Assembly (NCBI GenBank): GCA_021781455.1
Contig: JAJXWV010000069.1
Coordinates: forward strand, 1 to 64,000
Reading direction: 5' to 3'
Origin: Acidobacteriota bacterium
GTDB taxonomy: Bacteria > Acidobacteriota > Thermoanaerobaculia > Gp7-AA8
Length of the DNA: 64,000 nt
The translations under genes and the position numbers were made by a program. Positions 51,617-56,535 of the stretch are shown here, one piece after another. The notes under the pieces were generated by a model. It had not been told where the DNA came from. It searched no databases and saw only the letters and a list, made by a program, of their open reading frames with translations. The first letter of the stretch is position 1, and each line of letters starts with the position of its first letter.

Positions 51617-51934
51617 GTGGCGATGGAACAGATACTCAACCTGATCTGGATCGCGATCGCGGTCGGCACGGCGGTGGCAGTCCTGCCGCGGCGCCGTGAC
51701 GTGCGTGCGATCGCCGCCGTGGCCTGCGTTGCGGCCGTTCTGTTCCCCATCATCTCCGTTTCCGACGACATGCTGGCGGACCGGACGCTGCTCGACGCGA
51801 TCGCCGCCGTTCTCATCGGCTTCGGCCTCTTCCTCGGCCTTACGCTGGTCTTCCGCATCCGGTCGCAGCAGCGCTCCATGCAGCTGCTCGCGATCCCGAT
51901 TCACTCCGACCCACGATCGCCGCCCCGCGTCTGA
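51617..51934 (+). CDS. Hypothetical membrane protein, three TM segments
   Basis: About 105 residues with three hydrophobic helices (LNLIWIAIAVGTAVAVL, IAAVACVAAVLFPIISV, LLDAIAAVLIGFGLFLGLTL) and a polar tail. The start is GTG 51617 or ATG 51623. No family is recognised. Confidence 0.6.
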   Translation: MAMEQILNLIWIAIAVGTAVAVLPRRRDVRAIAAVACVAAVLFPIISVSDDMLADRTLLDAIAAVLIGFGLFLGLTLVFRIRSQQRSMQLLAIPIHSDPRSPPRV

Positions 51935-52449: not shown

Positions 52450-53223
52450 ATGAGGCGCGATCTCTGGCTGGTCGTGATCGGCGCGTTCATCGGGCTCGTC
52501 GCCGCCGCGGCAACGGCGCTGCACGCACACCCGTCAGTGTTCACAGCAACGTTTGCATCGACACGGGCGCGCGCTTCCCATTGCGGCTGCGGGCCGCTCG
52601 CGGACGTCCGTGATCTCCCGCTGGTCGTCGATCCCGCGCCTTATGCCGGCCACACGATGGCGGTGCTGATCAGCGGAGACGGAGGATGGCGGGGCATCGA
52701 CAAGAGCATCGCCTCCGGTCTCAATGCGCGTGGTGTGTCGGTGGTGGGACTCGTGGCACCGGCGTACTTCGGCAAGCGGAAGACGCCGGAGCAGGCCTCG
52801 TGCGACCTGCGGCGCATCATCGAGTACTACTCGATCTACTGGCACGCGCCGAAAGTGATCATCGCCGGATACTCGCGCGGAGCGGGTGTGGCGCCATTCA
52901 TGGTCTCTCGGCTGCCTGCGAAATGGCAGGCTCACGTCGAATCGATCGCCTTCATCGCCCTCGAGCGGACCATCGATTTTCAGGTCACGCCACTCGACCT
53001 GTTTCGAACGGCGCCCGCATCGCATGACGTTCCGGTTGCAGGTGAGATCGCGAAACTGCACGGCAAGCGGCTGATCTGCATCTACGGTGTTCGCGACCCG
53101 GACAACCTCTGCCGCGACCTCTCGCCGTCGCTCGTGACCCGCGTTCCTGAACCGGGCGGACATCATTTTGCCGGCAGCTATGAAGAGCTCGCCGGAACGA
53201 TCCTGAAACTGTCGCACTCGTGA
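52450..53223 (+). CDS. VirJ/AcvB-like serine esterase
   Basis: A 257-residue secreted or membrane-anchored alpha/beta-hydrolase (DLWLVVIGAFIGLVAAAATA signal anchor). The family signature is AVLISGDGGWRGIDKSIASG, the nucleophile elbow IIAGYSRGAGVAPFM, and the C-terminal His GGHHFAGSYEELA. AcvB/VirJ proteins in Agrobacterium hydrolyse lysyl-phosphatidylglycerol. Here it overlaps the hydrolase-POTRA-barrel gene by 4 bp, so both may act on envelope lipids. Confidence 0.85.
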   Translation: MRRDLWLVVIGAFIGLVAAAATALHAHPSVFTATFASTRARASHCGCGPLADVRDLPLVVDPAPYAGHTMAVLISGDGGWRGIDKSIASGLNARGVSVVGLVAPAYFGKRKTPEQASCDLRRIIEYYSIYWHAPKVIIAGYSRGAGVAPFMVSRLPAKWQAHVESIAFIALERTIDFQVTPLDLFRTAPASHDVPVAGEIAKLHGKRLICIYGVRDPDNLCRDLSPSLVTRVPEPGGHHFAGSYEELAGTILKLSHS

Positions 53224-55862
53224 GAAGAATTCGATTGATGTCGACAGGCACAAGCGCCGCGAAGGATGCGCGTCTTCCTGAGCCGCCGGAGCGCGCCCCG
53301 ATGGTGAGCGTCGGCAGCGCGGCGAAGGGCATGTGTCATCCTGAGCCGCCGAAGCGCGCGCGGGTGGTGGGTGGCGGCAGCGCGGCGAAGGACGGCGAAG
53401 GATCCCCCGCAAGTTCATCGCGGGCCGGGTGGGCGCCCCTACTTGTTCTCACGGTGATCGTGGTAGGCGCCTCATCCCTCCACGCCGCTCAGCCGACCGA
53501 TTACGCTGCCGCAGGTCCTCACTCCGTCTCCGTCGTACGCGAGCAGTGGTACGACTCCGCGCGCCAGCGCAGCGTCCCGGTCAAGATCTACTACCCCGAC
53601 GACATCACCACACCTTCTCCCGTCGTGATCTTCTCCCACGGACTCGGCAATTCACGCGAGGGCTACGAGTATCTCGGCCATCACTGGGCGAGCCACGGCT
53701 TCGTCTCCGTTCACCCGGAGCATGTGGGTGCCGCACACGACATCGAGAAGAAGGGGCTGATCGCGCTCTATCGCGCCGGCAACGACCACAGCTACTGGCG
53801 TACTTACCCGGAAGACATCCGCTTCGTCATCGATCACCTTCCACAGTCGTCGGTGGCGTCGCGGGTGGACATGCAGCACATCGCCGTGGCGGGGCACTCT
53901 CTCGGCGCGTATGCGACTCTGGCGGAGGCCGGACTGATCGTGCCCGGAGCGAAAGGGTTGCACGACCCGCGCGTGATCGCCGGCATTCCGATCTCGATGT
54001 CCGAAGACTTCCCGCCTTCGGCCTATGGCGGGATTCGCATTCCGCTGCTGCACATCACCGGCACGCGCGACTCGAGCATCGTCTACGGCACGCTGCCTCG
54101 CGATCGCCGGATTCCATTCGACAGCATCACGGCGCCCGATCAGTTCCTGCTCACGATTCGCGGTGCGAACCACTCCACGTATTCGGATGACGAAAGTGCG
54201 CACAACCGCCGGGATCACGACCTGATCCGGGCGGCGACGACGGCGTTTCTCGACGCTTTCCTGCGCGGCGACGGCACGGCCCGGCAATGGCTGGCGGGCG
54301 GCGGCCTGCAGCAGTTCGCCAGCGCAGATGCGCGGCTGGAGATGCGGGGCGTGGCGGGAGCTCCGCTGCGGATCGGGCGGATCGAAGTGCACACCACGCC
54401 GCTGTTTTCGTCCGAGGAGGAATCGCACGGGCGGTTCTACGAAGTGGCCGATGCCCTGCACACGCCGACGCGCTCCGCTCTCGTGCGCAAGTTCCTGCTG
54501 TTCCACGAAGGCGATCTGTACGACCCGAAGCGGATCGTGGAGAGCGAGAAGAATCTCAGGCAGCTCGACTTCATCAAGGTGGCCACGATCAAGTCCGGCC
54601 CGCCGCACGACGGGGTCGTCGACATCGCCGTGGAGACTCAGGACGAGTGGACGACCGATCCCAACATCGATTTCGGTCATGACGGCGGCGTGGCCACCTG
54701 GAGTCTCAACGTCACGCAGAAGGATCTCCTCGGCAGCGGTGCCGAGGTCTCGCTGACGGGAGCGCGCGATCCGGAGCGCACCTCGCGATCACTGGAGATC
54801 ATCCATCCGGCGTTCCTTCGCGCGTATTCGAATCTCGACCTCACGCTGACAAAGGCCTCGGACGGCGGGGAGACGCGCGCCGAGCTCGGCCAGCCGTTCT
54901 ACTCCACGACTGCGCCGTTCTCGTACAGCATCCTGTTCGACCACGGCGCGAAGTCGATGCGCACCTTCGAAGACGGCGTGATGACTTCGCGCTTTCACGA
55001 GGACAACCGCGAGATCCGGGCCCTCTTCGGCGCGGCGTTGTCGGTCAGCGACAGGCACGCCCACCGGCTGCTGTTCGGGGTGGATCTTCAGGACAGCACC
55101 TTCGGCCTGCTCGAAGGCGACGGCAGTCCGCTGGATCGACATTTTCAATGGGCCCTTCTCGGCTATGAGTTCGCGTCGCAGGACCTGGTGAAGCTCGATT
55201 ACGTCGACCACGATGCCCGCTTCGACGATTTCGAGCTCGGCCCGCACGCCGCGGTCATGTTCGGAGTCTCGCCGCGAGGAGTGACCGATCGGGTCACCCA
55301 GCTCGTGAACGCGAGCGCCTCGACCGGCTTTCGACTCGGCGAGCACGCCTTCGTCGTTCCCAGTGCTGCCTACACGAGCCGTTTCGAGGGCGGCCCGCAG
55401 AATGAGATCGCCACGGCCGAACTGCGTCTGATCTGGCGTCCCGACACCAGGCCCATCCAGACCTTCGTCTCGCGGCTGCGCATCGACGATGGTCACAATC
55501 TCGACCGCGATGTGCAGTTCTTCGCGGACGGGCTGCGCGGGCTGCGCGGATACCCGGCCTACGCGTTCGCGGGCGATCGGGCCGTCGTGTTCAACGCCGA
55601 GCATCGCCTGTTCCTCGGTCGCGAGCTGCTGCAGCTCTTCGCGCCGGCGGCGGCGATCTTCATTGATTCCGGAACTGCTTCACCGGCGGGTCAGCGGATC
55701 CGTTTCGGCGATTTCAAAACTGACGTCGGCGCTGGATTGCGGATCGCAATCGCACGTGCCGAGTCGACCGTACTTCGATTGGATATGGCATATGCACTCA
55801 ACAACAGTCCCACAGGAAAACGCGGTTTCGTCTTCTCGTTCGGCACGACGCAGGCTTTCTGA
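53220..55862 (+). CDS. Alpha/beta-hydrolase fused to POTRA and outer-membrane barrel
   Basis: About 880 residues from GTG 53220 (ATG 53238 possible). After a repeat-derived N-terminal ~66 residues comes a signal sequence (PLLVLTVIVVGASSLHAAQ). Residues ~95-370 are a PAF-acetylhydrolase/dienelactone-hydrolase-like domain: FSHGLGNSREGYEYL, AVAGHSLGAYAT (Ser ~227), ITGTRDSSIV, IRGANHSTY complete a Ser-Asp-His triad. A POTRA domain (~386-460, KFLLFHEGDLYDPKRIVESE) and a BamA/TpsB-like barrel ending FVFSFGTTQAF follow. The plan equals type Vd (PlpD) but with another passenger fold. Confidence 0.88.
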   Translation: MRRIRLMSTGTSAAKDARLPEPPERAPMVSVGSAAKGMCHPEPPKRARVVGGGSAAKDGEGSPASSSRAGWAPLLVLTVIVVGASSLHAAQPTDYAAAGPHSVSVVREQWYDSARQRSVPVKIYYPDDITTPSPVVIFSHGLGNSREGYEYLGHHWASHGFVSVHPEHVGAAHDIEKKGLIALYRAGNDHSYWRTYPEDIRFVIDHLPQSSVASRVDMQHIAVAGHSLGAYATLAEAGLIVPGAKGLHDPRVIAGIPISMSEDFPPSAYGGIRIPLLHITGTRDSSIVYGTLPRDRRIPFDSITAPDQFLLTIRGANHSTYSDDESAHNRRDHDLIRAATTAFLDAFLRGDGTARQWLAGGGLQQFASADARLEMRGVAGAPLRIGRIEVHTTPLFSSEEESHGRFYEVADALHTPTRSALVRKFLLFHEGDLYDPKRIVESEKNLRQLDFIKVATIKSGPPHDGVVDIAVETQDEWTTDPNIDFGHDGGVATWSLNVTQKDLLGSGAEVSLTGARDPERTSRSLEIIHPAFLRAYSNLDLTLTKASDGGETRAELGQPFYSTTAPFSYSILFDHGAKSMRTFEDGVMTSRFHEDNREIRALFGAALSVSDRHAHRLLFGVDLQDSTFGLLEGDGSPLDRHFQWALLGYEFASQDLVKLDYVDHDARFDDFELGPHAAVMFGVSPRGVTDRVTQLVNASASTGFRLGEHAFVVPSAAYTSRFEGGPQNEIATAELRLIWRPDTRPIQTFVSRLRIDDGHNLDRDVQFFADGLRGLRGYPAYAFAGDRAVVFNAEHRLFLGRELLQLFAPAAAIFIDSGTASPAGQRIRFGDFKTDVGAGLRIAIARAESTVLRLDMAYALNNSPTGKRGFVFSFGTTQAF
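53250..53405. repeat. Tandem diverged half copies of family B in a gene start
   Basis: AGCGCCGCGAAGGATG, then CCTGAGCCGCCGGAGCGCGC...GCAGCGCGGCGAAGGGC and CCTGAGCCGCCGAAGCGCGC...GCAGCGCGGCGAAGGACG repeat with a ~65-70 bp period. They encode the peptide repeats SAAKDARLPEPPERAP, SAAKGMCHPEPPKRAR and SAAKDGEG before the signal sequence. Confidence 0.85.
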
Positions 55863-56535
55863 GCGGCGGCAGTGTCATTCTCGGTGTCATCCTGAGCCGC
55901 CGCAGCGGGCGCGGGCGGGGTGGTGGAAAGAGCACGCGAGAAGTCTTGCGATCTTCGCCATTCTCCTCGCGACGACCCTGCTTGTACCGCCGCCCTCCGC
56001 GATGGCCGGTCCCATCGAGGTGTTTGCGGCCGCTCTCGGCGGTGCAAACCACGAGTTCGGCTCGCTCACGCCCACCGACTGGCGCCTTCACGCGGGCCGC
56101 GGCGCCGCAGCGGGTCTGGATTGGTATTTCGCGCGCCACCTCTCGGCACAGGTGCAGACCGGACTGGAAACCGAGAACATCCGTGTGAGCGGCAGCCAGC
56201 GGGGCCACTTTCACATCATCCCGACCTCCGCGCTCGTCCAGTATCACCCGGTCACCGATTCGATCGTCGAGCCGTACGTCGGCGTCGGCGTGGCGTATCT
56301 GATGTTCCGCGGCGGCGTGACGACTGCATACGGCCGCGCCGAACAGCCCGACCACGCCGCGCTCATGACTGACGCCGGCATCAACTACGTCGTAGCCCGG
56401 CACTGGCGCGTGAGCATCGGCGCGGAGTACGGGCCGGCGCGATCGACTGCGGAAATCACCCATCCCGGCGCGAAGACCGACAAGGTCGACTACCACCAGC
56501 TCTACATCGCGACCGGAGTGCGGTACCGCTTCTGA
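55792..56535 (+). CDS. OmpW-like outer-membrane protein with disturbed 5' end
   Basis: The mature part, from about 55990, is an eight-stranded OmpW-type barrel: SAQVQTGLETENIRVSG, PTSALVQYHPVTDSIVEPYV, GVGVAYLMFRGG, and a C-terminal YIATGVRYRF. A signal sequence (SLAIFAILLATTLLVPPPSA) precedes it. No ATG, GTG or TTG exists in frame between the end of the previous gene and the signal sequence; the nearest, ATG 55792, lies inside that gene. A family B half copy occupies the missing 5' segment. OmpW proteins transport small hydrophobic molecules. Confidence 0.65.
   Translation: MHSTTVPQENAVSSSRSARRRLSERRQCHSRCHPEPPQRARAGWWKEHARSLAIFAILLATTLLVPPPSAMAGPIEVFAAALGGANHEFGSLTPTDWRLHAGRGAAAGLDWYFARHLSAQVQTGLETENIRVSGSQRGHFHIIPTSALVQYHPVTDSIVEPYVGVGVAYLMFRGGVTTAYGRAEQPDHAALMTDAGINYVVARHWRVSIGAEYGPARSTAEITHPGAKTDKVDYHQLYIATGVRYRF
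55885..55960. repeat. Family B half copy at the OmpW-like 5' end
   Basis: TCATCCTGAGCCGCCGCAGC...GGTGGAAAGAGCACGCGAGAAG...CTTGCGATCTTCGCC follows the family B half-copy pattern and is read in frame as HPEPPQRARAGWWK just before the signal sequence. Confidence 0.75.

Follow-up and report, generated by a model that had tools for sequence, protein, structure and literature searches.

Gene content and domain architecture of the locus

The window analysed here is a stretch of 64,000 nucleotides from an Acidobacteriota bacterium (contig JAJXWV010000069.1, positions 1 to 64,000). In it, the single frame 53220-55862 encodes a signal peptide, an alpha/beta hydrolase, one POTRA domain and an Omp85 barrel, all in one chain. 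The features of the locus, in window positions, are the following:

51623-51934, + strand: small membrane protein gene between glutamine synthetase and the hydrolase locus, conserved in relatives
52450-53223, + strand: VirJ/AcvB-family esterase gene (ORF from 52300, ATG at 52450; PF06057 2.6e-49)
53220-55862, + strand: hydrolase-POTRA-Omp85 fusion gene, 880 codons plus stop, GTG start
53220-53423, + strand: non-conserved N-terminal stretch, codons 1-68 (21% identity and pN/pS 0.83 against the sister species)
53253-53378, + strand: two tandem copies, 78% identical, of a 63-nt repeat (repeat analysis)
53424-53489, + strand: signal peptide region, residues 69-90 (AGWAPLLVLTVIVVGASSLHAA), read from the sequence, without lipobox
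53496-54299, + strand: alpha/beta hydrolase domain of PAF-AH-II/PETase type, residues about 93-360 (Pfam, AlphaFold2, fold comparison)
53898-53900, + strand: predicted nucleophile S227 (GHSLG), near-invariant in a 38-row alignment
54069-54071, + strand: predicted catalytic D284 (GTRD), near-invariant in the same alignment
54171-54173, + strand: predicted catalytic H318 (GANH), near-invariant in the same alignment
54369-54644, + strand: single POTRA domain, residues about 384-475 (predicted secondary structure; TIGR03303 match at 416-541; profile search)
54645-55859, + strand: Omp85 beta-barrel, residues about 476-880, with LRGY loop-6 motif at 775-778 and C-terminal Phe
55489-56535, + strand: OmpW-like protein gene, OmpW homology in residues 211-348 (PF03922 1.2e-12)

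The domain order that the initial annotation had read from the letters alone (signal sequence, Ser-Asp-His hydrolase, POTRA, barrel) was borne out by Pfam, TIGR and profile matches and by AlphaFold2. The hydrolase matches PF12740 (PETase, 5.3e-9), PF03403 (PAF-AH_p_II, 7.4e-9) and PF07224 (chlorophyllase, 1.5e-6), all over the Pfam cut-offs, and has the GxSxG nucleophile, the Asp followed by the His and the alpha/beta fold of PAF-AH-II/PETase enzymes. AlphaFold2 modelled this part mostly above 90 pLDDT, and the nearest solved folds to the model are PETases and cutinases. "PAF-AH-like" and "PETase-like" are equally good labels, and neither fixes the substrate. The suggestion that the hydrolase fold is unrelated to that of patatin also stood, given the PF12740 and PF03403 matches and the absence of a Pfam match to patatin (PF01734) in the fusion protein.

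For the C-terminal half, the matches to PF01103 (Omp85, 16.8 bits) and PF07244 (POTRA, 13.5 bits) fall under the Pfam cut-offs, and those to BamA TIGR03303 (5.3e-13) and Omp85_fam NF047779 (1e-11) fall under the equivalog/subfamily cut-offs. A 12-sequence profile of this half retrieved TamA (1.4e-6) and BamA (4.9e-5) from the PDB, with a range of 1e-6 to 5e-5. The "BamA/TpsB-like" barrel first proposed is BamA-like as stated, and is better called BamA/TamA-like, with the TpsB part dropped. The Arg and Tyr of LRGY are invariant in 12 sequences, so that the protein combines a POTRA domain and an Omp85-type barrel with the RG(F/Y) loop-6 motif and the C-terminal aromatic residue of the Omp85 superfamily. 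Structure prediction, which the initial annotation had named as a check, returned a POTRA domain mostly at 82-88 pLDDT with the expected beta-alpha-alpha-beta-beta order, followed by an all-beta C-terminal region whose confidence (mean pLDDT 56) is too low for a count of its strands against the sixteen of Omp85 barrels. The low confidence of the barrel follows from an alignment with only four barrel rows. Foldseek with this low-confidence barrel model gave BamA/TamA as the nearest solved folds.

Codons 1-68 are probably in part untranslated. Since residues 1-68 are unconserved and contain the repeat copies, the true start may be the GTG at 53364 or 53367; an ATG at 53238 is a further alternative start within the frame. 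The 35-nt core of the 63-nt repeat occurs again at 55884-55918, ahead of the OmpW-like gene. The core CATCCTGAGCCGCCGAAGCGCGCG is found at the 5' ends of both the fusion gene and the OmpW-like gene, which was the case in 0 of 100 shuffles, and it lengthens the predicted N-termini of both genes.

Occurrence and conservation of the fusion

The fusion is also present in G001, a sister species of the same genus (75% identity), and in G007 and G015, two species of another genus of the same family (about 45% identity). In the G007 copy, a short run of N interrupts the hydrolase; beyond it, the sequence runs without a break from the last hydrolase helices through the barrel. Among 396 genomes of the phylum, a draw into which G001, G007 and G015 did not fall, 104 match either half, and only the window's genome has both in one chain. 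When 84,980 species genomes were searched with hydrolase peptides, these three fusions were among the best 80 loci, and in the other 77, a few of which end at contig edges, the frame of the hydrolase showed no barrel; 86 weaker candidates were left aside. The fusion-bearing lineage appears to be one small group of soil Acidobacteriota. No alpha/beta-hydrolase-Omp85 protein was found in the open-access literature, subscription journals being outside the search.

Comparison of the window with G001 gave pN/pS values of 0.27 for the hydrolase, 0.26 for the linker, 0.26 for the POTRA domain and 0.28 for the barrel. Because these values are similarly low, the linker included, hydrolase, linker and barrel are evidently under selection as a single protein. 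Chance read-through or an assembly error joining two adjacent genes is highly improbable and was rejected on sequence grounds: although the two halves are near neighbours in G006, with one gene between them, and the G007 copy has its run of N, the fusion occurs in four genomes of two genera and its linker is under purifying selection.

Origin of the two halves

Outside the fused genomes, hydrolase and barrel appear to be separate genes. The relatives of the barrel are signal peptide-POTRA-barrel proteins, one of which (41%) is encoded elsewhere in the window's own genome, and the barrel descends from this phylum-wide one-POTRA Omp85 family. Long-frame barrels of the family were considered as further fusions and rejected, as the 12 inspected have a signal-peptide-like stretch shortly before the POTRA domain and no evident second domain. 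The hydrolase, for its part, descends from standalone enzymes, most of which have lipoprotein signal peptides in this family.

The barrel tree places the four fused copies as two lineages within a fully supported clade of ten, all from this family; the window's genus branches first, G007/G015 next and then six unfused barrels. The hydrolase tree contains the same clade, with the unfused enzymes of G006 and G008 inside it and standalone enzymes as the nearest relatives. These topologies suggest either a single fusion that was later split or two separate fusions. In G006, the unfused hydrolase and barrel genes directly flank a gene for a PIG-L de-N-acetylase (G006:C365, L039:4026-4886). In G008, the two halves are on different contigs, the unfused hydrolase being at the syntenic locus, in the order glutamine synthetase, small membrane protein, hydrolase, peptide-binding protein, phosphodiesterase. 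A barrel remnant was looked for behind the G008 standalone hydrolase, and nothing convincing was found there. Genus g5 has the barrel alone; an orthologous hydrolase was not found in it.

Distribution of the lipobox

The window protein has no lipobox (Cys after the signal peptide), and the fused G001 protein has LATST at its place. The other two of the four fused proteins have one: G007 (MTGKLRALCFLALAGC; LALAGC) and G015 (LVLATSC; LATSC). So do seven unfused hydrolases of the family (G002, G010, G016, G012, G004, G013 and G008), and the G006 hydrolase has a borderline lipobox, LLDSC. On the simplest reading of these signal sequences, the enzyme was ancestrally a lipoprotein, the fusion would have added a second anchor, and one genus, that of the window, would then have lost the first; such a history fits a barrel that replaced the lipid anchor. 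With the N-terminus lipidated and the C-terminus formed by a barrel, the enzyme would most easily lie between the two, in the periplasm. Surface-exposed lipoproteins do exist, and so a lipobox is compatible with export as well.

Neighbouring genes and other Omp85 proteins of the genome

The stop codon of the VirJ-family gene overlaps the fusion's GTG at 53220, and the initial annotation had described the fusion as coupled to this esterase. The neighbour does belong to the VirJ family; among the fused genomes, the arrangement is found only here, VirJ being absent beside the fusion in G001, G007 and G015, where the fusion is at the same locus. A functional coupling to VirJ as a general rule was rejected for that reason. 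A VirJ gene also adjoins the unfused hydrolase of G008. Agrobacterium VirJ is a Lys-PG hydrolase (PMC13135905). The copy beside the fusion is the third in the genome, and on contig C63 MprF is followed by two VirJ genes, an arrangement that is probably the genome's Lys-PG system. The OmpW-like gene was correctly placed downstream of the fusion and, among the other fused genomes, is common to G001 only. The small membrane protein has a conserved LFPIISxSDD motif and is present in one or two copies in the four relatives that have the locus.

Other Omp85 proteins are encoded outside the window in the same genome. One frame of 2441 codons (G000:C43:253742-261064; L188:243-7565) contains TamB (PF04357 3.1e-45), six POTRA repeats and an Omp85 barrel (9.1e-44), and so unites in one polypeptide the two halves of the TAM complex. 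For its C-terminal 1041 residues, the matching frames are 2083-2510 aa long in eight further genomes of the family and 1652 aa long in a ninth; in G004, G018 and other families, they are near 950-1350 aa. BamA and TamB are neighbouring genes in Acidobacteria (PMC4494059). Two more Omp85 proteins (G000:C82, L189; G000:C38, L190) have N-terminal WD40-like repeats, and one of them, in a 999-aa frame, also has a Peptidase_MA-like domain.

Interpretation of the fusion protein

We consider it fairly probable that the protein is an esterase or lipase tethered to the outer membrane, working in the periplasm at the inner face of that membrane, and that it evolved separately from PlpD. The fusion chain would be exported by Sec, and its barrel, an Omp85 barrel with a C-terminal Phe, would be inserted by BAM, with the POTRA domain and the hydrolase remaining in the periplasm under it. 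There, the Ser-Asp-His enzyme would cleave esters of the inner leaflet, most likely phospholipids, lysophospholipids or other acyl lipids. Such a protein would have arisen by fusion of a lipoprotein enzyme with an Omp85 protein of one POTRA domain that the phylum already had; anchoring would have passed to the barrel, and the lipobox would have been lost later in the window's genus. This reading is favoured by the fusion conserved in four genomes, the barrel and hydrolase trees, the lipoboxes, the conserved triad, the PETase/cutinase-like fold and the analogy to PlpD. The poor barrel model, the surface lipoproteins, the extracellular enzymes of PETase/cutinase type and the surface location reported for FplA (see below) speak against it.

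It could also be that the hydrolase serves the barrel, i.e., that the Omp85 part functions in assembly or translocation and that, as its substrates are inserted, the esterase deacylates or otherwise processes them or brings about a local change in the membrane. Omp85 proteins of known function do assemble or translocate proteins, and the barrel is found alone in many genomes, those of genus g5 included. Nevertheless, the loci inspected have no conserved partner gene beside the barrel, and many phyla have the hydrolase by itself with no barrel nearby; we regard this role as unlikely.

The initial annotation had favoured a type Vd-like autotransporter, in which the barrel would export the hydrolase to the surface or the medium, where it would attack foreign lipids, esters or polymers. 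PETase/cutinase-like enzymes frequently act outside cells, on polymers, and the hydrolase is near the secreted PETases and cutinases in its sequence family; the domain order, moreover, is that of PlpD and FplA. The patatin domain of PlpD, the prototype, was reportedly at first described as secreted, hence the name "type Vd". For FplA, a 2017 report described a location on the surface of E. coli (PMC5724010); later work, as it is cited in PMC11116518, did not find it there. By 2024 protease, disulfide and lipidomic data, the PlpD lipase domain is periplasmic, the protein being a homodimer in the outer membrane whose deletion raises phospholipid levels (PMC11116518). The analogy to PlpD remains good, yet it is no longer an argument for secretion, since the PlpD lipase is now placed in the periplasm. 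As two of the four fused proteins, in addition, start with a lipoprotein signal peptide, "type Vd secretion" is not supported; the relatives of the barrel lack a passenger, being plain POTRA-barrel proteins, and a compact folded hydrolase would be poor cargo for an Omp85 pore. Export to the surface is thus improbable in our estimation. Whether enzyme-Omp85 fusions in general secrete the enzyme or retain it in the periplasm is disputed.

A broader and rather doubtful proposal can be made: fusions of Omp85 barrels with unrelated lipid hydrolases may have arisen on more than one occasion, the reason being the unstable seam of the barrel, which gives access to the lipids of the inner leaflet, and this lineage may keep the steps from lipoprotein enzyme through fused lipoprotein enzyme to fused enzyme without a lipid anchor. 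Enzyme-Omp85 proteins would then be lipid-remodelling machines and not a secretion system. A second Omp85 fusion with an unrelated enzyme, whose relatives are still lipid-anchored at the N-terminus, would be a natural test of secretion versus periplasmic retention, and behaviour common to two unrelated enzymes would indicate what the barrel does for them.

Comparison with known systems

As a hydrolase, the protein shares fold, nucleophile elbow and triad with the PAF-acetylhydrolase II and PETase-cutinase enzymes; those with solved structures matched here have no membrane barrel, unlike the fusion. The VirJ/AcvB Lys-PG hydrolases share PF06057 with the neighbouring gene at 52450-53223, but this gene is an extra copy outside the probable Lys-PG operon.

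As an Omp85 protein, it has the POTRA domain and barrel of the "BamA-like" subfamily, which carries 1-3 POTRA domains (Heinz and Lithgow 2014, PMC4104836), and the standalone relatives of its barrel match the description of that subfamily; the fusion differs in bearing an enzyme. None of the ten Omp85 architectures in PMC4104836 is named there as bearing such an alpha/beta hydrolase, and the words "hydrolase" and "esterase" are absent from its text. The fusion would extend the short list of N-terminal domains of Omp85 proteins by an enzyme class.

The closest parallel is with the PL-Omp85 or "type Vd" proteins PlpD and FplA. The likeness of layout claimed by the initial annotation is real: an N-terminal lipid hydrolase is followed by one POTRA domain and a C-terminal Omp85 barrel, as in PL-Omp85 proteins. 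In contrast, the hydrolase of PlpD and FplA is a patatin with a Ser-Asp dyad, and that of the fusion is of PAF-AH-II/PETase type with a Ser-Asp-His triad. No patatin is fused to a barrel in the window's genome, which has two patatins elsewhere in frames without an Omp85 match. The barrel comes from the acidobacterial one-POTRA family and, unlike PlpD and FplA, some fused members have a lipobox. The fusion resembles the PL-Omp85 proteins in its likely working and is no member of the group, since the defining patatin domain is absent.
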